From Chryseobacterium lathyri (GTDB taxonomy: Bacteria > Bacteroidota > Bacteroidia > Flavobacteriales > Weeksellaceae), in the NCBI RefSeq assembly GCF_003290185.1, contig NZ_QNFY01000003.1:124001-188000 (forward strand): a stretch of 64,000 bases of DNA. Reading direction: 5' to 3'. The first letter of the stretch is position 1. Each line of letters starts with the position of its first letter. The translations under genes and the position numbers were made by a program. The notes under the pieces are model-generated. The model saw nothing but the letters and a program-made list of their open reading frames with translations. It did no database searches and had not been told where the DNA came from. Positions 3,104 through 56,487 of the stretch are shown one piece after another.

Positions 3104-4387
3104 TTATTGTTGTTTGCTTGTATTTCTTTTTGGATAAAGAATTAAACGGATGGATGGGTTATTGGTGATAAACAGCCGTAACCAATCCAGTGCTAGCCTG
3201 ATTTTGCTTCTGAAGCCTACCAGCGGAATAATATGGATAAACAGCCATGTAAGCCAGGCCAGGAAACCTTTGAAAGAAAATTTGGGAAGATCCACCACGG
3301 CATTGAATTTTGAAATGATCGCCATACTGCCCTTATCATTATATTTGAAAGGAATGAGTATTTTTTCTTCTTCGATCCTGATGAAATTTTTAGCCAGATT
3401 TTTAGCCTGCTGTATGGCCACCTGGGCAAGCTGGGGATGTCCTTTCGGGAACTCTTTATCCGTTAATTGAAGCGCGATATCTCCTACCGCATAGATGTTC
3501 TCCATTCCTTCTACCCGGTTGTATTCATCAGTTAAGATTCTTCTTCCTTTTCCTATTTTGTCTTCCGGAATTCCAGGAACTTCCCGTCCTATAACTCCGG
3601 AGGTCCAGATGAGGGTTTCGGTATCTATCGATGTTCCGTCGGACAGAAGCACCTGATTATTGACATAGTCTTTTACCGAAACATTAAGAAGTATTTTTAC
3701 ACCAAGCTCCTGTAAAGTCTTGTGGGAAGTCTCCTGCGCCATTTTACTCATCGGGGAAAGCAGGGTAGGTAAGGCATCAATCAGATACAGATTGGAAAGG
3801 TTGAGCTTGATCTCCGGGTATTCTTTTTCAGCAATATATTTTCCCATTTCCGCGATCATGCCCGCCAGTTCTACCCCGGTAGGTCCGCCGCCTGCTATAA
3901 CCACATTCTGTAATTTTTCTGCGGTTTTCGGGTCTTTATTTCTGGCAGCTTCCTCCAAGTTGAGGAGCATATGATTCCGCAGATAAAGTGCCTCCTCAAT
4001 ACTTTTCATAGGAAGTGCACATCTCTGCACATTATCCATTCCGAAAAAGTTGGACTCAGTTCCCAATGCAATAACCAGATAATCGTAAGTCAGGTTTCCT
4101 GTATCTGTTTCTATGGTTTTGCTTTCGGGATTCACTTTAAGAAGACTTCCCATATGAAAATTCACATTTTTGTATTTTGAAAATAATCTACGGAAAGGAT
4201 AGCTGATGTTGGAGGCCTGAATAAAAGAGGTCGCCACCTGGTAAATAAGGGGAGGAAAGAAATGATAATTGTTCTTATCAACAAGCGTAATAAGAAATCT
4301 ATTGTCATTTTTTAAGGATTTAATAAGATTAATTCCTGCAAATCCTCCACCAACAATAATGATATGCTTTTTCATGTTAATTGACAT
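3104..4387 (-). CDS. ndh: Type II NADH:quinone oxidoreductase (NDH-2-like)
   Basis: This 427-aa flavoprotein has two Rossmann motifs. The N-terminal FAD site is GGGFAG (residues 13-18), followed by the DKNNYHFFPPLIYQVAT signature typical of NDH-2. The second site, AGGGPTGVELAG, lies near residue 165 and binds NAD(P)H. A YAVGD motif near residue 300 contacts FAD. The C-terminus carries a hydrophobic and aromatic amphipathic segment (about 355-385), as in membrane-associated NDH-2. The enzyme passes electrons from NADH to quinone without pumping protons. The Met at residue 5 is an alternative start. It is divergent from a Crp/Fnr-type regulator across a 355-base gap, which may point to redox control. 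Confidence 0.88.
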   Translation of the reverse strand: MSINMKKHIIIVGGGFAGINLIKSLKNDNRFLITLVDKNNYHFFPPLIYQVATSFIQASNISYPFRRLFSKYKNVNFHMGSLLKVNPESKTIETDTGNLTYDYLVIALGTESNFFGMDNVQRCALPMKSIEEALYLRNHMLLNLEEAARNKDPKTAEKLQNVVIAGGGPTGVELAGMIAEMGKYIAEKEYPEIKLNLSNLYLIDALPTLLSPMSKMAQETSHKTLQELGVKILLNVSVKDYVNNQVLLSDGTSIDTETLIWTSGVIGREVPGIPEDKIGKGRRILTDEYNRVEGMENIYAVGDIALQLTDKEFPKGHPQLAQVAIQQAKNLAKNFIRIEEEKILIPFKYNDKGSMAIISKFNAVVDLPKFSFKGFLAWLTWLFIHIIPLVGFRSKIRLALDWLRLFITNNPSIRLILYPKRNTSKQQ

Positions 4388-48453: not shown

Positions 48454-50025
48454 ATGCTACATAATAACCAAATATTAAAAGCTTTAATTGACCGTCTTTG
48501 GAATAACTTCTGGAGCGGCGGTATCAGTAATCCGCTTACTGCCATTGAACAAATTACCTATTTGATTTTCATGAAACAAATGGATGATTTGGAAGCAAAA
48601 CGTGAACGCGAGGCAGAATCTCTAGGAGAAGTTTATACCTCAAAGTTTGATGGTATGTTTAAAGTGCCAGGAAGCGAAGAAGAAATCAGTAAACAAGACT
48701 TGCGTTGGGCCACATTTACAAGCAGTATGTCAGGCGAAGCACTTTTACATCACGTACAAACCAAAGTATTTCCTTTTCTTAAAGAATTTGAAGGCGGATT
48801 TAAGTTTACCAAAGCCATGGCAAGTGCTGTTTTTATTATGCCAAAGCCATCTTTATTAGAAGAAGCCATTAAAATAATTGAAGAGATCTTTATTGAAATT
48901 AAAAAAGATGCTATTGAGGGCGGTCATGCTTTTCAAGATATACAAGGTGACGTGTATGAAATGTTGTTGGGTGAAATTGCCAGTGCAGGTAAAAACGGAC
49001 AATTTAGAACTCCACGTCATATCATTAAATTGATGATCGACTTATTGCAGCCACAATTGGGACAGCGAATTGTTGACCCAGCTTGTGGAACTGCTGGTTT
49101 CTTACTGGGAGCGTATCAGTATATTTTGACCGATTTGGTTAAAAAAGATAATCCAGAAGCCTTACAACCAGATGAAGATGGTTTTATGCGTGCCACCGTT
49201 TCGGCTACTTTAAATGAAAATTTAAAGCATATTGTTGAAGAATCGTTATATGGATATGATATTGATACTACTATGGTACGATTAGGATTGATGAACCTGA
49301 TGATGCACGGTATTAACCAACCTAATATTGACTATAAAGATACGTTAAGTAAATCCTATAATGAGGATTCGCAATACGATTTAGTATTGGCTAATCCCCC
49401 TTTTACAGGTAATATTGACAAAGGTGATATTAATGAAAGTTTAAAACTGGTTACGACCAAAACGGAATTACTTTTTATTGAACGTATTTATACCATGCTT
49501 AAAATGGGAGGTACTGCAGCAATTGTCATACCTCAAGGTGTATTATTTGGTAGCGGAAAAGCTTTTGTGGAATGCCGTAAAATAATGGTAGAAAAAAGTG
49601 AATTGAAAGCTGTAATAAGTATGCCTAGTGGTGTATTTAAACCTTATGCGGGAGTAAGTACGGCCATTTTAATTTTTACTAAGGGAAGTGAAAGCAGTAA
49701 TGTTTGGTTTTACGATATGCAAAATGATGGATATACTCTTGATGATAAACGTAATAAAATTGAAAAGAGTGATTTACTAGACATTGTTCAGAAATATCAT
49801 AACCGTAATTCTGCTCCCAGCATAGATAATCAAAGAACAGTGAATTTTTTTACAATTTCTAAACAAGAAATTGTAGATAATAACTACGATTTAAGTTTTA
49901 GTAAATATCAAGAACAAGTTTATGAAGAAGTTGAATATGAAGAACCAAAAGTAATATTTGAAAAATTAGAAACTATAGAAGCAAATATTATTAAAGGCAT
50001 TAATGAATTAAAAGAGTTGTTTTAA
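48454..50025 (+). CDS. hsdM: Type I restriction-modification DNA methyltransferase subunit
   Basis: This 523-aa protein has an N-terminal HsdM helical domain (WNNFWSGGISNPLTAIEQITYLIFMKQMDD) and then the N6-adenine methyltransferase domain. The AdoMet site is DPACGTAGF (about 209-217) and the catalytic NPPF is at about 314-317. Together with HsdS it methylates adenine in a bipartite target. The length is normal for HsdM. Its stop shares a base with the hsdS ATG. The whole operon is visibly more A+T-rich than flanking genes, a sign of acquisition. Confidence 0.93.
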   Translation: MLHNNQILKALIDRLWNNFWSGGISNPLTAIEQITYLIFMKQMDDLEAKREREAESLGEVYTSKFDGMFKVPGSEEEISKQDLRWATFTSSMSGEALLHHVQTKVFPFLKEFEGGFKFTKAMASAVFIMPKPSLLEEAIKIIEEIFIEIKKDAIEGGHAFQDIQGDVYEMLLGEIASAGKNGQFRTPRHIIKLMIDLLQPQLGQRIVDPACGTAGFLLGAYQYILTDLVKKDNPEALQPDEDGFMRATVSATLNENLKHIVEESLYGYDIDTTMVRLGLMNLMMHGINQPNIDYKDTLSKSYNEDSQYDLVLANPPFTGNIDKGDINESLKLVTTKTELLFIERIYTMLKMGGTAAIVIPQGVLFGSGKAFVECRKIMVEKSELKAVISMPSGVFKPYAGVSTAILIFTKGSESSNVWFYDMQNDGYTLDDKRNKIEKSDLLDIVQKYHNRNSAPSIDNQRTVNFFTISKQEIVDNNYDLSFSKYQEQVYEEVEYEEPKVIFEKLETIEANIIKGINELKELF

Positions 50026-51623
50026 TGGAATTTGTAAAATTAGGTTTTGTTTGTAAATTGAGAAATGGTTATGCCTTTAAAAGTAGTAATTTTACTGAAA
50101 GAGGTGTGCCGATTATTCGTATTTCAAATATTAATGATCATGTAGTAACACCACAAAATTCAGTAAGAACTATTTATGAAAAACAATTTGATAATTTTAA
50201 AATTACTAATGGGGATATTCTGATTGCAATGTCAGGAGCAACAACTGGTAAATTTGGAATTTATAAATCTGACGAAATTGCTTATCAAAATCAAAGAGTA
50301 GGATGTTTTAAAATATTAGATGAAAATAGATTAAATCAAGATTATCTATTTCAAGTTTTAAATACCATTAAGCCAATTATTGAAACAAAAGCAAATGGTG
50401 GAGCACAACCTAATATTTCTTCTAATTCAATTGAAGGAATAGAAATCCCTTTACCTGCATTACGTGACCAAATCCAAATTGCAGAAATTTTAACAAAAGC
50501 AGAAAACCTAATCCAAAAACGTAAAGAAAGTATTAAACTTTTAGATAACTTTTTAAAGAGTACGTTTTTGGAGATGTTTGGTGATCCTGTAAAGAATGAA
50601 AAAGGGTGGAAATATTTATCAGGTGAAAAATATTTAACTAAAATTACTGTTGGAGTGGTTATCAAACCTGCATCTCATTATGTAGACGAAGGGGTTATTG
50701 CATTACGATCATTAAATATTAAACCTAATAGAATTGATCTATCTAACCTTGTTTATTTTTCTAATAGTGCAAATGAAAGTTTATTATCTAAATCAATCTT
50801 AAATGAGGGTGATGTAGTTTTTGTGAGAACAGGCCTAACAGGAACTGCAGCGATAATTCCGAAAGAACTAGATGGTTGTAATTGTATTGATTTAATTATA
50901 ACACGACCTAAAGAGAATTTAATTAATCCTAGATATTTAGTTTTCTTTTTTAATTCTGATATTGGTAAACGAATAGTTTCATCCAACGAAGTGGGTGGTA
51001 TTCAAAAACACTTTAATGTTAGTGCATTAAAAAAATTGAAAATACCTATTCCTCCTATTGAACTCCAAAACCAATTTGCTACAATAGTTGAAAAAGTAGA
51101 GAGCTTAAAGAAAGAATATGAAGCTAGCTTACAAGAGTTAGAGAATATGTATGGAACTTTGAGTCAAAAGGCTTTTAAAGGTGAACTAAATTTAAGTAAA
51201 GTCAATTTAAAATCATATAAGGTCGAATTAAAAACACATGTTGCAGGTTCTTTAGAGCCACAAATTGAAGTTGAAAACCTTCCGGTTTTTTCAGAAAAAG
51301 AAAAATATATCAAAGATATGTCACTTGATGAATATTATGGAATTCCGGAAGAAATAATAGCGAAATATGGCAGTATTGAAGAACATCATCAAAACTGGGA
51401 ATTTTTACTTAAAAAGTTTTTTCACAACAGCTATGTAGATTTATCTAAACTTGAAGATATTTACCATAAATTGTTTTATCAAGGTGGTCATGATTTTGAA
51501 TTTGAAGATTGGAAAGCCTTTGTTTTTGAGGAATTATCAAAATCTAAATCTTTCTTAAAGCAAAAATTCAATACAAAAACCAATCAATTAGAATTACTAA
51601 TCAATGAAATTAAAAAGCCTTAA
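50025..51623 (+). CDS. hsdS: Type I specificity subunit with extra C-terminal domain
   Basis: This 532-aa protein has two target-recognition domains (about 1-150 and 200-350). They are separated and closed by the conserved helical spacers IPLPALRDQIQIAEILTKAE and IPIPPIELQNQFATIVEKVE. HsdS proteins usually end near residue 400. This one continues for about 130 residues, including SLDEYYGIPEEIIAKYGSIE and a Trp/Phe-rich helical part. The last 20 bases overlap the ATPase gene. The extension could dock the ATPase or the HNH protein; that role is inference. Confidence 0.9.
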   Translation: MEFVKLGFVCKLRNGYAFKSSNFTERGVPIIRISNINDHVVTPQNSVRTIYEKQFDNFKITNGDILIAMSGATTGKFGIYKSDEIAYQNQRVGCFKILDENRLNQDYLFQVLNTIKPIIETKANGGAQPNISSNSIEGIEIPLPALRDQIQIAEILTKAENLIQKRKESIKLLDNFLKSTFLEMFGDPVKNEKGWKYLSGEKYLTKITVGVVIKPASHYVDEGVIALRSLNIKPNRIDLSNLVYFSNSANESLLSKSILNEGDVVFVRTGLTGTAAIIPKELDGCNCIDLIITRPKENLINPRYLVFFFNSDIGKRIVSSNEVGGIQKHFNVSALKKLKIPIPPIELQNQFATIVEKVESLKKEYEASLQELENMYGTLSQKAFKGELNLSKVNLKSYKVELKTHVAGSLEPQIEVENLPVFSEKEKYIKDMSLDEYYGIPEEIIAKYGSIEEHHQNWEFLLKKFFHNSYVDLSKLEDIYHKLFYQGGHDFEFEDWKAFVFEELSKSKSFLKQKFNTKTNQLELLINEIKKP

Positions 51624-53352
51624 ATTACATTCACAATTTAGAAGTCTGCAAGCAGGTTTTGAAATAAACTTTCTAAATGATTATAATTCAAGTGAGTTAT
51701 GGGGTTTTTCGCCCTATTGCTTAGTTGGAAGAAATGGTTCTGGTAAATCAAATATTCTTGAAGTTTTAGCAGAAATTTTTTATCATATTGAATGTATTTA
51801 TTTAGATTTTAAACCTGATGGTTTTAATGGAGAAGGAAAATTTAAAAAAGTACATACTGATGGTTTTTTTGCTGAAAGTTGTAATCCTGATGCTTTTGAA
51901 TTAGAATACTATTATTACATTAAAGGAGATTATTCTCGAAAACATTATAATTCGGATTATAATATTGGTCAAGATGCTCATATAAGGATTGAAAAAAAAG
52001 TTAATGAATCTCCCAAAGTATATTGGTTAAACAGAAAAGAATGTGTTGGAATTGAGAAAACTTTACTAGAAAGAATTGAGGTTAAATATTTTTTACCCGA
52101 CTTTATTGTTGCTTATTCATCTGGTGAAAATCAAATTATAAATCTTCCCTTTTTTAAAATGCGATTTATACAATATGATGAATATTTGTACAGATTAATC
52201 AAAGACTTAGACTACATTAAACCTGAAAGTCGATTTGTATATTTAGATGAATACTATAATCAAGCTGTTTTGTTATCAATTTATTTATTACGTGAAAAAA
52301 AATCACTACTTCCTTTTAAGAATGAATTAGGACTTGATGATATAAAATCTTTTAGATTGATTATCAAACAAGAAGAATTTGAAAAAGTTCATAAGGATGT
52401 TTTCCAAACAATTCCAATAGTAGACAGGAAAAATAAAAACAAAATTACACGTGAATTGACGTCTTTGATAAGTAAATCAATTGAACGATTAAAAGCATGC
52501 AGTACAACTTCATATTACAATCATGAAACTAAAGAGTGGATTTTAGATTATTTTGTGGATAAAGAATGTAGGAAAGCGTTTAAATTTCATTTTGCAAACG
52601 ATGCATTTGAGCTTTTTAGAACTTTTCAAGTTTTACTCAATTTGAATAATTATAAAACTCCTAAAAAAATAAAACAAAAAGTTTATCATTCTAAGAATAT
52701 ATATATCAATCAAGATGTTATTCCATTGCCTTATGATGAAGAACGAATTTTTAGATTTAAGAATGTTATTTTAAAGAAGGATAAAATTAATGAAGTGATT
52801 TACACCAAATCGTTATCAGATGGTGAATATCAATTTATTCATTCCATAGGATTGTGCTTGTTATTTAGAGATACTAACTCTTTGTTTTTGTTGGATGAAC
52901 CAGAAACACATTTTAATCCTGATTGGCGTTCCAATTTTATTTCAACATTAAAAGATTGTCTCGAACAGGAAGATAATAGTCCATTAGATAATAGAAGAGA
53001 TTTATTAATTACTTCGCATTCACCATTTATAGTATCAGATTGTAAACCTGAAAATGTCATCATTTTTGATAAGCATAATAAAAAAGTCGTACATCAAACA
53101 GCGAGAGATAAAGGAATAAGAACTTTTGGTACTTCAGTGAATATTTTGACAGAAGAAATTTTTGGCAAAAAGGAATCGATTTCTAAATTATCACTTGAAA
53201 TTATAGAAAGTATAAAAGGAATGCCATTAAACAGCATTGAAGAAATTATAGAAGCTAAAGAACAAGCAAGAGTATTAGGAGAATCGGTAGAAAAAGTTTT
53301 GTTATTTAGAGAACTTATAATCAAAGAAAACGAATTGAAGAAGCTAGAATGA
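51604..53352 (+). CDS. Restriction-associated SMC/ABC-type ATPase
   Basis: This 582-aa protein has an ABC-type split ATPase fold. Walker A is GRNGSGKS (42-49). The signature-like segment is LSDGEYQ (about 403-409). Walker B is LFLLDEPETH (about 427-436), and TSHSPFIVSD is the switch region (about 469). The middle insertion is long and charged. The layout resembles AAA_21/OLD-like and Septu PtuA-type ATPases. It is translationally coupled to hsdS (20-base overlap) and to the HNH gene (4-base overlap). It probably senses or powers a nuclease step. It has no helicase motifs and is not an HsdR. Confidence 0.85.
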   Translation: MKLKSLKLHSQFRSLQAGFEINFLNDYNSSELWGFSPYCLVGRNGSGKSNILEVLAEIFYHIECIYLDFKPDGFNGEGKFKKVHTDGFFAESCNPDAFELEYYYYIKGDYSRKHYNSDYNIGQDAHIRIEKKVNESPKVYWLNRKECVGIEKTLLERIEVKYFLPDFIVAYSSGENQIINLPFFKMRFIQYDEYLYRLIKDLDYIKPESRFVYLDEYYNQAVLLSIYLLREKKSLLPFKNELGLDDIKSFRLIIKQEEFEKVHKDVFQTIPIVDRKNKNKITRELTSLISKSIERLKACSTTSYYNHETKEWILDYFVDKECRKAFKFHFANDAFELFRTFQVLLNLNNYKTPKKIKQKVYHSKNIYINQDVIPLPYDEERIFRFKNVILKKDKINEVIYTKSLSDGEYQFIHSIGLCLLFRDTNSLFLLDEPETHFNPDWRSNFISTLKDCLEQEDNSPLDNRRDLLITSHSPFIVSDCKPENVIIFDKHNKKVVHQTARDKGIRTFGTSVNILTEEIFGKKESISKLSLEIIESIKGMPLNSIEEIIEAKEQARVLGESVEKVLLFRELIIKENELKKLE

Positions 53353-54392
53353 TAAATAGTTATAAATATTTAATTAGTTGTCATATCATGTTACATGACT
53401 ATGTTATCAGATTCTTTGAAAAAATAGAACATGAAACTGGCGCTTTTGATGATGCTTTTTTTGATCCTGACTTCTATGATATAGTTAAAAGGCATCCCAA
53501 AATAATTAAGACCCAATTAATCGCAATTTATAATATTTTTAAAAGACTAGATCAAACTACTAGAACCACTATTTGTAACCAAATAAAGAATAGTAATAAT
53601 TTAGAATTAATATGCTCGGGTGGTTATATTCCTGTTTCATTAGATAATAAGGTTAGAGGTCTTAAAAAATTATTACGAGATTTTTTCTTGAATTTATACG
53701 ATCAAGTATTAGATGGAGATGCTTTCAGAAATAAATTTCATACAACATTATTAGAACATTTTAATAAATTTAGAAGTCTTAATAAAGACTTAACACTTTG
53801 TCCTACATGTGGGATTGGAGAGCTAAAAATGTCCAAAAGCAAAACAAGAGATCAATACGACCATTTTTTGCCAAAATCATTATATCCATTTTCATCAGTA
53901 AATTTTGAAAATTTAATTTTATGCTGTAAAGAATGCAATTCATTTGATGTTAAAGGAGATAATGATACCATTGCATTATCAACTGGTCGTTTATTCTACC
54001 CATTTGATTTTAGTCATAAACAATTATCAATATCATTTGGAATAAATACAGACAATGTAAAACCAGAGGAAATACTTTGGAATATTACTTATTCAAGCCC
54101 AGATGGTAAAGTTGACGAAATTCAATCATGGAGATCTATTTATGATATTGATGCCAGATATAGTGATTTTGCAAAAGGAAGAGTAGAAAAATGGTATCGC
54201 TTTTATTGGGAATATCTTAATGATGCTGATATGGCTCATATGCCTGAAGAAGATAGAAAACTAGCATGTCTCAAAGCTTTAGAATTAGATGAAAAATTAA
54301 GACTTTCATTTATTAGAAAACCTGTTTTGGATGGTTTTTTAAGAGATTCTGTTTTAGCAAGAGCACAAATTGAAGCCAGTGTATATATTTAA
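53349..54392 (+). CDS. HNH nuclease-like protein, effector candidate of the hsd island
   Basis: This 347-aa protein has a helical N-terminal part and an HNH-type zinc site. CPTCG is at about 151-155, QYDHFLPKS (His about 172) gives the first catalytic His, and LCCKECNSFD is at about 191-200. The C-terminal half is helical and rich in charged residues. HNH proteins paired with an ATPase are known as PtuB in Septu defence. The ATG lies within the last codons of the ATPase gene, so the two are coupled. It is the only nuclease-like gene in the operon, so it is the likely DNA-cleaving part. Confidence 0.82.
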   Translation: MINSYKYLISCHIMLHDYVIRFFEKIEHETGAFDDAFFDPDFYDIVKRHPKIIKTQLIAIYNIFKRLDQTTRTTICNQIKNSNNLELICSGGYIPVSLDNKVRGLKKLLRDFFLNLYDQVLDGDAFRNKFHTTLLEHFNKFRSLNKDLTLCPTCGIGELKMSKSKTRDQYDHFLPKSLYPFSSVNFENLILCCKECNSFDVKGDNDTIALSTGRLFYPFDFSHKQLSISFGINTDNVKPEEILWNITYSSPDGKVDEIQSWRSIYDIDARYSDFAKGRVEKWYRFYWEYLNDADMAHMPEEDRKLACLKALELDEKLRLSFIRKPVLDGFLRDSVLARAQIEASVYI

Positions 54393-54582: not shown

Positions 54583-54864
54583 TCAGTATTTCTGTGATAG
54601 TTTAATATATTTTTTCATATCAAAATCAAAGAGTTCTTGTATTGTAACATTAAGTTCTTTGCTGATCATAAGTAGAGTATCATATCGTGGATTAGTATTA
54701 CCTCTTTCTAATTCTCCTATTGTTTTTTTTGCATGCCCAGTCCTTAAACCTAGCTCTTCTTGTGAAATAGGCTTATTCGTCTCGGGATTTATAACTTTCT
54801 TTCTTAACTCAGAAATTCTATAACCAAGGGCTTTTTTATAATTGTTAAGATCAATTTCATTCAT
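54583..54864 (-). CDS. XRE-type helix-turn-helix regulator
   Basis: This 93-aa protein has a central HTH_3 domain: ISQEELGLRTGHAKKTIGELERGNTNPRYDTLL. Helix 3 would contact DNA. It lies convergent to the hsd island (190 bases) and divergent from the predicted RNA gene. A perfect palindrome 36-53 bases upstream of its start is a good autoregulatory site. It could be a control protein of the defence island or belong to the core genome with the RNA. Confidence 0.85.
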   Translation of the reverse strand: MNEIDLNNYKKALGYRISELRKKVINPETNKPISQEELGLRTGHAKKTIGELERGNTNPRYDTLLMISKELNVTIQELFDFDMKKYIKLSQKY

Positions 54865-54899
54865 TAACCGTAAAATTCAAAGTTTGAAATTAAAATTTA

Positions 54900-54917
54900 G
54901 GATACTTATATGTATCC
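54900..54917. promoter_or_regulatory. Palindromic operator between the XRE gene and the RNA promoter
   Basis: GGATAC-TTATAT-GTATCC has perfect 6-base arms. It is placed so that a bound XRE dimer could affect both the XRE gene and the divergent promoter at 54933. Confidence 0.55.
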
Positions 54918-54932
54918 TTTTGTTTTTTTTCC

Positions 54933-54940
54933 TATATTTG
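54933..54940 (+). promoter_or_regulatory. -7 promoter box of the predicted structured RNA
   Basis: TATATTTG matches TAnnTTTG exactly. The predicted transcript starts near 54946, at the first hairpin. No good -33 element at the usual distance is seen. Confidence 0.5.
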
Positions 54941-54945
54941 TCCAA

Positions 54946-55145
54946 TAAGCTACAATAAAGTAGCTTTGCGATACTTCAAAGAATAATAGAAGCTATTGCT
55001 TAGAATCTTGTAATAGAAAACTGGTAATTTTAAACACACAAGACAATAGGCAAGAAGCTCACGACCTAGGCGTGGGCTTTCTTATCTGTGTGTTGGGTAT
55101 ACCAGTACCTCTATTACGGATAATGTAGAGTCTATGCCGTTTTTT
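54946..55145 (+). ncRNA. Predicted structured RNA of about 200 nt (6S-like candidate)
   Basis: Several perfect stems lie in tandem after a consensus -7 box. AAGCTAC/GTAGCTT (54947-54966) is followed by a long imperfect hairpin at 55010-55117. The hairpin is built of GTAATAGA/TCTATTAC, ACTGGTA/TACCAGT, ACACACA/TGTGTGT and an apical AGAAGCTCACG/CGTGGGCTTTCT. A stem CGGATA/TATGCCG with a T-run (55140-55145) looks like a terminator. No reading frame fits the region. Length and the single long, interrupted helix resemble 6S RNA, and a flavobacterial 6S family is known. A retron-like RNA is less likely because no reverse transcriptase is present. The family is not established here. Confidence 0.55.
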
Positions 55146-55147
55146 AT
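55117..55147 (+). terminator. Terminator of the predicted structured RNA
   Basis: CGGATA pairs with TATGCCG with one bulge and is followed by six T residues and a further T-rich run. Confidence 0.45.
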
Positions 55148-55354
55148 TTCATGCTGTTCTGCTTTTCTACAATCATCTTTTTCTAAGCTGCTTTACTATA
55201 TAAAGTATCATGATACGATACAATGGAGTGTACAATCCATTGCGGCTTCAGGGCTTTCACGGGAACACAGATTTTATTTTGATTCATCATTTACAATACA
55301 ACTCAGCGTACATTTGGTAGGCTGGTGGTTTCATGCATTCTAAAAATACAACCA

Positions 55355-55900
55355 ATGAAAAAGATAAAAACAGATTTCGATCCCTGGTTTCGGGCAGGAA
55401 AGAAGCGCTCCGGGTTGCAGCTGATGGAAACTTTCTTTCAGTTCAATGAGCTGGATGTTTCCAAAGAAAGGCTCAGCAATATTATGAATTATGCAGTAAA
55501 GAGGAATAGCTGGATCAATGAAGATCCGGCGGTTATCTTCCAGTTTCATCAGTCGATGAGGTCATTGATCCGGGCAGGATATCTCATCATGCTGAAGGAA
55601 AGGAAATGGACTGTCGATACCCAACAGGAAAAGATTTCCCCGTGGGTTCTTGGTTTGCTTTCGGAGAAGGAATACCGGAATCCTCTGCTGGTTTTCAAAA
55701 AAGCATTCAGAGCATACAGCGTCAAAGAATTCGATTATTTTATGTCCGGAATCGTCTATTTCTCCATGGGCGTCTATGAAAATCTACCGGAAAGGAATAT
55801 CGTTATGCCCTACATCCATACGGTTAAAATGCTGGATGCCGCACACCTTATTCTTCAAAGAAGGAGAGAAAAGGAGATGGCTGACACCCATTCAGGATAA
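55355..55900 (+). CDS. Unknown protein, 181 aa
   Basis: The start at 55355 (MKKIKTDFDPWFRAGKK) is preferred to an in-frame ATG at 55325, whose extra residues look like random read-through. The product is basic, largely helical and lacks signal or membrane segments. It contains a WF-rich start, FQFHQSMRSLIRAGYLIML and MSGIVYFSMGVYENLPERN. No known family is recognised. It is convergent with the P-loop ATPase gene. Confidence 0.65.
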   Translation: MKKIKTDFDPWFRAGKKRSGLQLMETFFQFNELDVSKERLSNIMNYAVKRNSWINEDPAVIFQFHQSMRSLIRAGYLIMLKERKWTVDTQQEKISPWVLGLLSEKEYRNPLLVFKKAFRAYSVKEFDYFMSGIVYFSMGVYENLPERNIVMPYIHTVKMLDAAHLILQRRREKEMADTHSG

Positions 55901-55974: not shown

Positions 55975-56487
55975 CTAGGATAAAATTCCGGTCAGCACCT
56001 GATCTTTTCGGTTCGATGAAGTTCCGCTTACTTTAATGACCTTTATTCCAAGATCCTCAATCCAGTCATAAAGTAACTCATTAACCTTATGCCTGAGTTT
56101 TGGCAGCTCTATTTGATGTTTGGATATCAGATCGGGTTCTTCAATAGGGACAAAAACAAAAATATCAATTTCATCGATGATGGTTTGAACTTTTTCAAAG
56201 AGAAACTGGATATTTCGACCTGAATCAAGAACATGAAGATAAGCTAAGATATCGATGACACATCTGTCAAATATGACATCATCTCCGCTTTTGAAAACCA
56301 GTTTGGCTGAATAATTAAATTGTTCAAGAAAATCGTCAGGATGAGGTTCTTCTGAAAATTCATACCCTGAAGACTCCATCTGGTAGTAGGGTTCTATTTC
56401 AAGGGTGTACCCGGGAAGGTTCTCCAGAAGTTCTTCTGCCAATGTAGTTTTACCGACTTTGTGAGCGCCGATTATTGCAATTCTCAT
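55975..56487 (-). CDS. P-loop ATPase/kinase-like protein (AAA_28-type)
   Basis: This 170-aa protein starts MRIAIIGAHKVGKTTLAEEL with Walker A GAHKVGKTT. A switch-like VIFDRCVIDILAYL follows, with FDRC as in nucleotide- and shikimate-type kinases, then IDIFVFVPIEEP. The size and motif order match small AAA_28 ATPases, some of which act as NadR-like or deoxynucleoside kinases. The substrate is unknown. Confidence 0.8.
   Translation of the reverse strand: MRIAIIGAHKVGKTTLAEELLENLPGYTLEIEPYYQMESSGYEFSEEPHPDDFLEQFNYSAKLVFKSGDDVIFDRCVIDILAYLHVLDSGRNIQFLFEKVQTIIDEIDIFVFVPIEEPDLISKHQIELPKLRHKVNELLYDWIEDLGIKVIKVSGTSSNRKDQVLTGILS

Follow-up and report, generated by a model that had tools for sequence, protein, structure and literature searches.

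The question raised by this locus is what lies between two small genes of Chryseobacterium lathyri. The window, by which we mean the whole 64,000-nt stretch of DNA that was analysed, holds a segment at 54946-55145 flanked by an HTH gene in divergent orientation (54583-54864, minus strand) and by a gene for a protein of 181 aa (55355-55900, plus strand). A sequence-only reading had noticed here a -7 box, a 5' stem, an interrupted hairpin of 108 nt and a T-run, all of which are in the sequence, and had proposed a structured RNA that might be 6S RNA or something unassigned. Judged from sequence comparisons, the segment is a promising candidate for a genetic switch, and its family is often located between antiviral gene islands and the genes of outer-membrane nutrient receptors. 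Our best reading is of a regulatory module that would consist of a divergent Cro/CI-type repressor, an operator candidate, a single promoter and a structured RNA of about 200 nt.

A structured RNA with a promoter-like box

The core RNA would run along the plus strand for about 200 nt, from a presumed start at 54946 to the end of the T-run at 55149. A promoter box of the form TAnnTTTG, here TATATTTG (54933-54940), precedes it; this box is found in nearly all of the genus copies and is absent in L095. RNA folding places a 5' stem-loop, AAGCTAC/GTAGCTT, at 54947-54953/54960-54966, for which L002 and L040 have ATTACTC-ATTA-GAGTAAT instead. Next comes the hairpin P0 (GCGATACTTC/GAAGCTATTGC, 54968-54999), a part of fold 1 that is predicted by folding and has two-sided changes in more distant copies. 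The bulk of fold 1 is an interrupted long hairpin, GTAATAG...CTATTAC, of exactly 108 nt (55010-55117), which is supported by covariation. It is built from helices B (55011-55016/55111-55116), C (55020-55026/55100-55106), D (55033-55037/55090-55094), E (55046-55050/55081-55085) and F (55056-55063/55071-55078), and has at its tip the loop ACCTAGG (55064-55070), which includes the palindrome CCTAGG. A further helix, A, joins TCTTG (55006-55010) with CAAGA (55039-55043), on the evidence of covariation and a permutation test. Fold 2 has a terminator hairpin (55069-55149 with its T-run) in which the arm GGCGTGGGCTTT (55069-55080) pairs with AGAGTCTATGCC (55127-55138), as indicated by the alignment fold and a permutation test, ahead of the T-run TTTTTTATTT (55140-55149).

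The palindromic loop is a possible site for a kissing-loop dimer. In L044 (8846-9077) the apical-loop palindrome CCTAGG is replaced by CCGCGCGG, which is palindromic too, as a kissing loop would predict.

The minimum free energy of the window RNA is -62.3 kcal/mol, compared with a mean of -41.1 kcal/mol for dinucleotide shuffles (z -5.1; none of the 200 shuffles was as good). The minus strand gives an equally good fold (z -5.85), so the strand is not set by folding alone. The plus strand is indicated by the strand on which the T-run lies and by the hairpin AGCTCACG/CGTGGGCT, where a conserved pair is U-G in 44 of 46 sequences and U-A in the other 2. With this fold, covarying stems, several copies and conservation, the proposal of a structured RNA with a promoter-like box and a terminator has good support.

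Sequence conservation in the genus extends beyond 55145, to about 55280, which suggests that the RNA may often be longer than 200 nt. The genus-conserved stretch 3' of the T-run (55150-55280, plus strand, from genus sequence comparison) contains GTATC/GATAC (55205-55216) and CAATGG/CCATTG (55221-55242), as well as TCTAAGC (55182-55188), which could pair with GCTTAGA (54998-55004) in a candidate outer helix. The outer helix is almost invariant in the genus. Outside the genus 18 loci were tried, 7 of them without a usable 5' arm or T-run by pattern, and the helix is exact in 2 of the other 11 (L180 and L184). We rejected it; the two-sided changes that it has in two wider alignments come from fitting those alignments to it.

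Two mutually exclusive folds

Because the 5' arm of the terminator, GGCGTGGGCTTT, sits inside the long hairpin, the long hairpin and the terminator exclude each other. The terminator of the sequence-only reading has to be restated for the same reason: the T-run and a hairpin exist, but the hairpin is not a separate local one, and a scan for local hairpins lists none at the window T-run. In the window the free fold has an energy of -62.3 kcal/mol and the fold with the terminator forced -57.4 kcal/mol, a difference of 5 kcal/mol between folds 1 and 2, while the terminator hairpin alone has -33.7 kcal/mol. The locus has two hallmarks of an intrinsic-terminator attenuator, and gene order is what points to control of the downstream gene by read-through. 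One hallmark is the G+C-rich hairpin at 55069-55138, with covarying arms and the T-run after it; the other is a conserved competing antiterminator fold, namely fold 1, which covaries and uses the same strand.

The evidence for fold 1 begins with the genus alignment of 46 sequences, in which, with helix A included, 132 cells have two-sided changes compared with 47.2 after shuffling. Compensatory stem changes in other Chryseobacterium genomes, proposed earlier as a check, are thus present. The covariation score in this alignment is 0.133 compared with 0.059 shuffled, versions of the structure slid along the alignment reach at most 0.034, and 95.6% of the cells in the named structure are paired. 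A first wider alignment, in which 23 of the 29 distinct rows come from other genera and 6 from the C. lathyri genome, has 239 two-sided cells compared with 74.9, a value reached by none of 500 shuffles, and a second one with 20 rows from other orders has 244 compared with 77.4 (0/500), both of these alignments having been fitted to fold 1.

Fold 2 is what RNAalifold chose unprompted: a 5' hairpin that includes helix A (TCTYG/CRAGA), then the terminator hairpin, which takes as its 5' arm the strand that closes the inner hairpin of fold 1 on the 3' side. Two-sided changes occur in 22 cells of fold 2, compared with 8.1 after shuffling. A permutation test, for which the two terminator arms were defined independently of each other, gives a mean longest helix of 8.24 with the own partner and 7.78 with shuffled partners (63 distinct arm pairs; 0/500). 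For the 38 pairs outside the genus alignment, three diverged relatives from the C. lathyri genome included, the values are 7.89 and 7.21 (0/1000). Only a few of 96 RNAs lack the T-run, and the best partner found by the script is mostly the expected arm; 7 of the 96 sequences had no usable T-run or spacing and were skipped in the test.

The permutation test of helix A gave 1/1000, 0/1000 and 16/1000 in three sets, and its pair at columns 51/85 is C-G in 26, U-A in 18 and U-G in 2 of the 46 sequences. Helix A could be either a pseudoknot on fold 1 or a part of fold 2, and the data fit both. We have dropped the notion that it is a simple fold 1 pseudoknot only, as it also belongs to fold 2. Given the compensatory changes and the permutation tests, we conclude that selection acts on RNA pairing in both folds.

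Copies and spread of the RNA family

A covariance model (R1), built from 46 genus sequences, matches the window at 54963-55189 with 266 bits. In the C. lathyri genome it finds five strong copies, which score 197-266 bits, together with three weaker relatives at 82, 45 and 40 bits. At E <= 0.001 it matches 176 of 246 genomes and 20 of 33 genera in a family sample, 67 of 296 genomes and 13 of 90 genera in an order sample, and 48 of 395 genomes and 21 of 170 genera in a phylum sample, these three samples overlapping. An exact-pattern search of named genomes gave at least 120 loci, and the matches listed include Chryseobacterium, Flavobacterium, Maribacter, Mucilaginibacter, Niabella and Echinicola.

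The possibility that the segment is the end of a mobile element had been raised as grounds for doubting an RNA gene. The exact-pattern search gave no match in viral contigs, phages gave no match to the RNA, and plasmids gave two partial matches (NZ_CP044017.1 15039-15159 and NZ_CP033916.1 60649-60772), both on mobilizable plasmids. One of these partial copies lies amid replication genes, the other downstream of a LexA-family regulator.

Some relatives are strongly diverged. Three of them in the C. lathyri genome (L127, L128 and L045; G000:C3:302452, C4:1826 and C29:1243) precede genes that by eye resemble one secreted (T9SS/RHS-like) family, and L045 adjoins ORFs that look integrase-like and NUMOD4/HNH-like by eye. 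A distant clade from other orders of the phylum (L212-L215 and L217-L219) has strongly repeated arms, TTGCGTCC / GGACGCG / TTGCGTCC, and several of its copies precede secreted-looking proteins.

No Rfam match overlaps 54946-55145 up to an E-value of 10, and the related loci scanned against Rfam gave no family match. We regard the RNA family as absent from Rfam 15 and as widespread across Bacteroidota, so that "something unassigned" was the apter of the two early guesses. Within the literature searches made, we found no published description of the RNA, the sequences of Rfp and HMP2_1032 standing outside this comparison. The Flavobacterium psychrophilum transcriptome report lists Rfp RNAs (PMC9723704), one of which may be a homologue.

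The presumed divergent repressor gene and an operator candidate

The divergent gene of the window (54583-54864, minus strand) encodes a Cro/CI-type HTH protein of 93 aa (HTH_3, 6e-10), which presumably represses the RNA promoter and its own gene. Such a gene has a fixed place beside the RNA. Of 80 full genus copies, 79 have a small divergent ORF whose start is 45-113 nt upstream of the TTTGCGA anchor; this count left out L045, where the anchor is absent, and the truncated second copy in L074. A small divergent gene is also present at 135 of 141 loci of a larger fetch (5 repeats included), and a divergent ORF at 96 of 117 assessable sites in named genomes. In a stricter repeat, the gene was found at 75 of 95 RNA sites, compared with 185 of 1249 random sites. 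HTH_3 matches 56 of the 79 divergent genes, and the matches of other HTH families overlap with these 56. The small divergent genes thus appear to be mostly Cro/CI-like, with HTH identity established for part of the set.

A palindrome search upstream of the promoter box found AGGATACTTATATGTATCCT (54899-54918), an operator candidate that is found again, beside an HTH gene of this type, in L048, L054, L070, L077 and L080. A local hairpin scan lists the same palindrome as terminator-like on both strands, and its role as an operator is for this reason something that we only infer. In the 60 bp before the promoter box, a palindrome score of at least 7 is reached in 61% of 79 loci, compared with 9% of mononucleotide shuffles. 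For the well represented repressor types, loci of the same type share a palindrome by eye and other types have other palindromes.

Two repressors of the same type are almost never found in one genome. Among 131 within-genome pairs (130 loci from 67 genomes, five repeats removed) a single pair, L073/L387 with 75% identity, is at least 40% identical, compared with 9.6 expected when genome labels are shuffled (0/2000 shuffles at or below). As a control for shared ancestry at one site we took pairs in which neither the genome nor the downstream flank is shared, of which 199/2494 (8.0%) have similar repressors. This control predicts 10.5 similar pairs among the 131, with a binomial P of about 2e-4, a rough value as are all those given here, the loci having been picked by RNA similarity to the window and the pairs being non-independent. 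Where the downstream flank is the same, repressors are similar in just 39 of 256 pairs and different in 217, which indicates that the repressor at one site is often replaced.

Downstream genes and a proposed mechanism

At 98 assessable sites in named genomes (23 further sites are too near a sequence end) the first recognised partner downstream is SusC in 64 cases, the 181-aa family in 11, sigmaE with dCas12f in 5 and none of these in 18. The SusC query proteins have a TonB receptor plug domain in 7 of 7 cases, and 6 of 6 scanned pass the NCBIfam SusC/RagA cut-off.

In the window's subfamily the partner is an orphan gene (55355-55900, plus strand) whose 181-aa product is predicted to be all-helical. 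This protein has no match in Pfam, NCBIfam, PHROGs or PADLOC, its best match among PDB sequences has an E-value of 0.082, and a fold search with a model of pLDDT 79 gave no match at E 0.001. It lies about 0.35 to 1 kb from the RNA in the loci that have it. In L172 and L110 its relatives stand between the RNA and a SusC-like start (identified by eye), and the gene may on this account have begun in receptor operons. Between the 181-aa gene and a flank common to other genomes, the window has a 170-aa AAA_28 nucleotide-kinase-like gene (55975-56487, minus strand).

A leader for processive antitermination (EAR/put/ops-like) would be expected to have additional terminators ahead of the gene. L052, L064 and L077 have another strong terminator between the RNA and the downstream gene, and a crude scan of this interval found terminators in 5 of 17 SusC-type and 7 of 54 other loci; with a look-back of just 50 nt it would miss longer hairpins, which are seen by eye in several SusC-type leaders.

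We propose, with about even confidence, that the locus encodes a bistable leader RNA that is gated by a repressor, carries its own terminator and would control read-through into the next gene. Directly supported are the conservation of the RNA, the two folds through their covariation, the constant place of the repressor gene and the exchange of repressor types and cargo. In the proposed sequence of events the repressor would keep the RNA promoter off until repression is lifted and the RNA is made. The nascent RNA would then form either the long hairpin, which hides an arm of the terminator, or the terminator itself. The fold chosen during transcription would decide whether a 200-nt RNA is released at the T-run or transcription continues into the downstream gene, be it the operon of a SusC-type TonB-dependent receptor, sigmaE-dCas12f or, in the window, the 181-aa gene. 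The balance between the folds may be tipped by a ligand, a protein, translation or an RNA acting in trans.

A pure cis leader fails to explain the 18 of 98 sites without a known partner, and likewise L203 (102.6 bits), L209 and L210, where the 2 kb after the RNA contain no gene in the same direction. The varying distance to the 181-aa gene, the extra terminators of L052, L064 and L077, the equally good fold of the minus strand, the conservation past the T-run and a terminator more conserved than is usual for riboswitches also count against the leader reading. L203, L209 and L210 favour the strongest alternative, in which the 200-nt RNA stands alone and acts in trans on other RNAs or on a protein, the genes downstream being separate units that hitch-hike. 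In favour of this are the RNA's own promoter box and terminator, its several copies and the partner genes that vary among loci, and its palindromic loop could dimerise. However, at 80 of the 98 assessable named sites a co-directional gene stays near the RNA and belongs to one of a few recurrent kinds, and conservation in the genus extends past the T-run. Moreover, two conserved, mutually exclusive folds are typical of cis attenuators. We give this alternative perhaps half the credence of the leader RNA.

Exchangeable cargo beside the repressor

On the other side of the repressor, the window has a defence cluster (50025-54392, plus strand) with three genes: a type I HsdS (50025-51623) and a PtuA-like ATPase (51604-53352), both from domain and family matches, and an HNH protein (53349-54392) with PADLOC matches to PDC-M62B, PDC-M01B and PtuB-like models. 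The best PADLOC match of this HNH protein is PDC-M62B, rather than the classical PtuB.

This side of the locus is exchangeable. When loci from different genomes whose repressors are of one type (60% identity or more) are compared, DNA similarity stops near the repressor stop codon, at a point from 60 nt past it to 15 nt before it, in 177 of 184 pairs, and 32 of the 184 have more than 150 nt of further similar DNA past the repressor. A hairpin resembling an intrinsic terminator is often seen by eye 3' of the stop codon, ahead of the point of divergence. Past the repressor, the nearest gene that encodes at least 150 aa has a PADLOC match (E <= 1e-5) in 14 of 20 loci, compared with 0 of 10 controls. 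The 20 loci are every fourth of 78, and the controls are every fourth of 40 genes that lie 2.5 kb or more downstream; the cargo genes of L083 and L120 match only at about 4e-6. The kinds matched are Gabija, Septu, SIR2, AbiJ, AbiLii, NucC-like, and type I and type II restriction-modification. From these comparisons we conclude that the RNA modules sit at one edge of exchangeable cargo that is often defence-related. None of the seven proteins neighbouring the window RNA has the reverse transcriptase domain of a retron.

It could be argued that the RNA serves above all as a conserved homology arm and promoter module in a system by which defence islands are exchanged, its sequence being used for recombination and the transcript itself mattering little. 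The end of similarity near the repressor stop codon, the defence-like cargo and the different repressors found before the same downstream flank in 217 of 256 pairs are all in line with this. That said, the compensatory base-pair changes in both folds reflect selection on RNA pairing, and the locus maps listed include no recurrent recombinase gene. There are single cases: L107 has a Mpi-type master DNA invertase (3334-3939; NF009949, E 5e-103) just beyond the repressor, and L047 has transposase-like ORFs by eye. We consider this explanation improbable.

RNA-guided activators and 6S RNA

A gene for sigmaE and one for dead Cas12f stand directly behind the RNA in L184 (5261-7130), L178 (1-1462), L221, L271, L284, L291 and L321, in the position that SusC holds at other loci. 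The assignment in L184 comes from a match to PDB 9n9c (E 1.2e-194); L178 has a second dCas12f, 60% identical over the part covered. The RNA might accordingly be a guide RNA, or the relic of one, for a sigmaE-dCas12f activator. Its occurrence in 5 of the 98 named sites is compatible with this, and such activators are said to act on susCD. Nevertheless, most copies of the RNA precede SusC, and the C. lathyri genome has five strong copies without a recognisable dCas12f (best E 0.046), which speaks against a guide RNA and makes this reading very hard to credit.

The last alternative, the flavobacterial 6S RNA of the sequence-only reading, has the size and the long interrupted hairpin in its favour and virtually nothing else, as the covariance models for 6S-Flavo, Bacteroidales-1 and 6S gave no match at the window or at the related loci scanned, which rules it out at the sensitivity used, a separate genomic candidate matches the first two models, and several copies per genome with repressors are unlike 6S RNA. 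That candidate (G000:C8:195150-195254; L009 1501-1605) has 43.1 bits with 6S-Flavo and 38.7 with Bacteroidales-1, colinear and weak matches that are both below the gathering score. It is likely to be the genome's own 6S RNA, perhaps as a diverged 6S member missed by those models.

Significance and comparison with known systems

If the reading of the locus as a repressor-gated leader RNA is right, Bacteroidota have a widespread RNA family that is unrecognised by Rfam 15 and that has a testable two-state mechanism. Its fixed partnership with exchangeable repressors would also offer a way into the question of what borders and regulates the defence islands of this phylum and, standing ahead of operons for SusC and sigmaE-dCas12f, the RNA would bear on how one surface receptor is chosen among many. 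The link to defence islands and receptors suggests that the repressors may respond to infection. An extension of this idea, which we think rather unlikely, is that repressor-gated RNA switches couple antiviral islands to the display of outer-membrane receptors throughout the phylum. Varied repressors, nearly always of differing types in any one genome, would sense varied triggers, e.g. phage infection, one conserved bistable RNA would carry the signal, and the output would be SusC-type receptors or their dCas12f activator. In that case, some of the SusC-type receptors switched by the RNA could be entry points for phages.

Several known systems invite comparison. The RNAs 6S-Flavo (RF01685) and Bacteroidales-1 (RF01693) are Bacteroidota RNAs of similar size, whose models miss the window RNA and weakly match G000:C8:195150. 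HMP2_1032 (PMC8040213) is a candidate structured, terminator-like RNA near TonB in gut Bacteroidetes. Compared by description alone, it shares these features and the neighbourhood of TonB genes with the window RNA and is unlike it in being 106 bp long and palindromic, present on both strands.

Systems of dCas12f and sigmaE for RNA-guided transcription were reportedly described by Hoffmann et al. in 2025. This is a protein system, which is unrecognisable in the C. lathyri genome and elsewhere fills the place of SusC behind the RNA.

The immunity repressors of prophages and plasmids offer an analogy for the module. They too have a small divergent Cro/CI repressor and an operator, here a candidate, and one genome rarely has two of one type. 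Unlike them, the window copy has no phage or replication genes in view, and the presumed repressed output is an RNA.

The closest relatives in kind are transcription attenuators and riboswitch leaders, a general class with an overlapping intrinsic terminator. The expression platforms of riboswitches usually vary, whereas the terminator of this RNA family is conserved, its arm phylum-wide; further differences are the promoter that adjoins exchangeable divergent repressors and the lack of an Rfam match. What the window RNA has in common with this class is two exclusive folds, one of them a terminator with a T-run, and a place that is often upstream of transporter genes.
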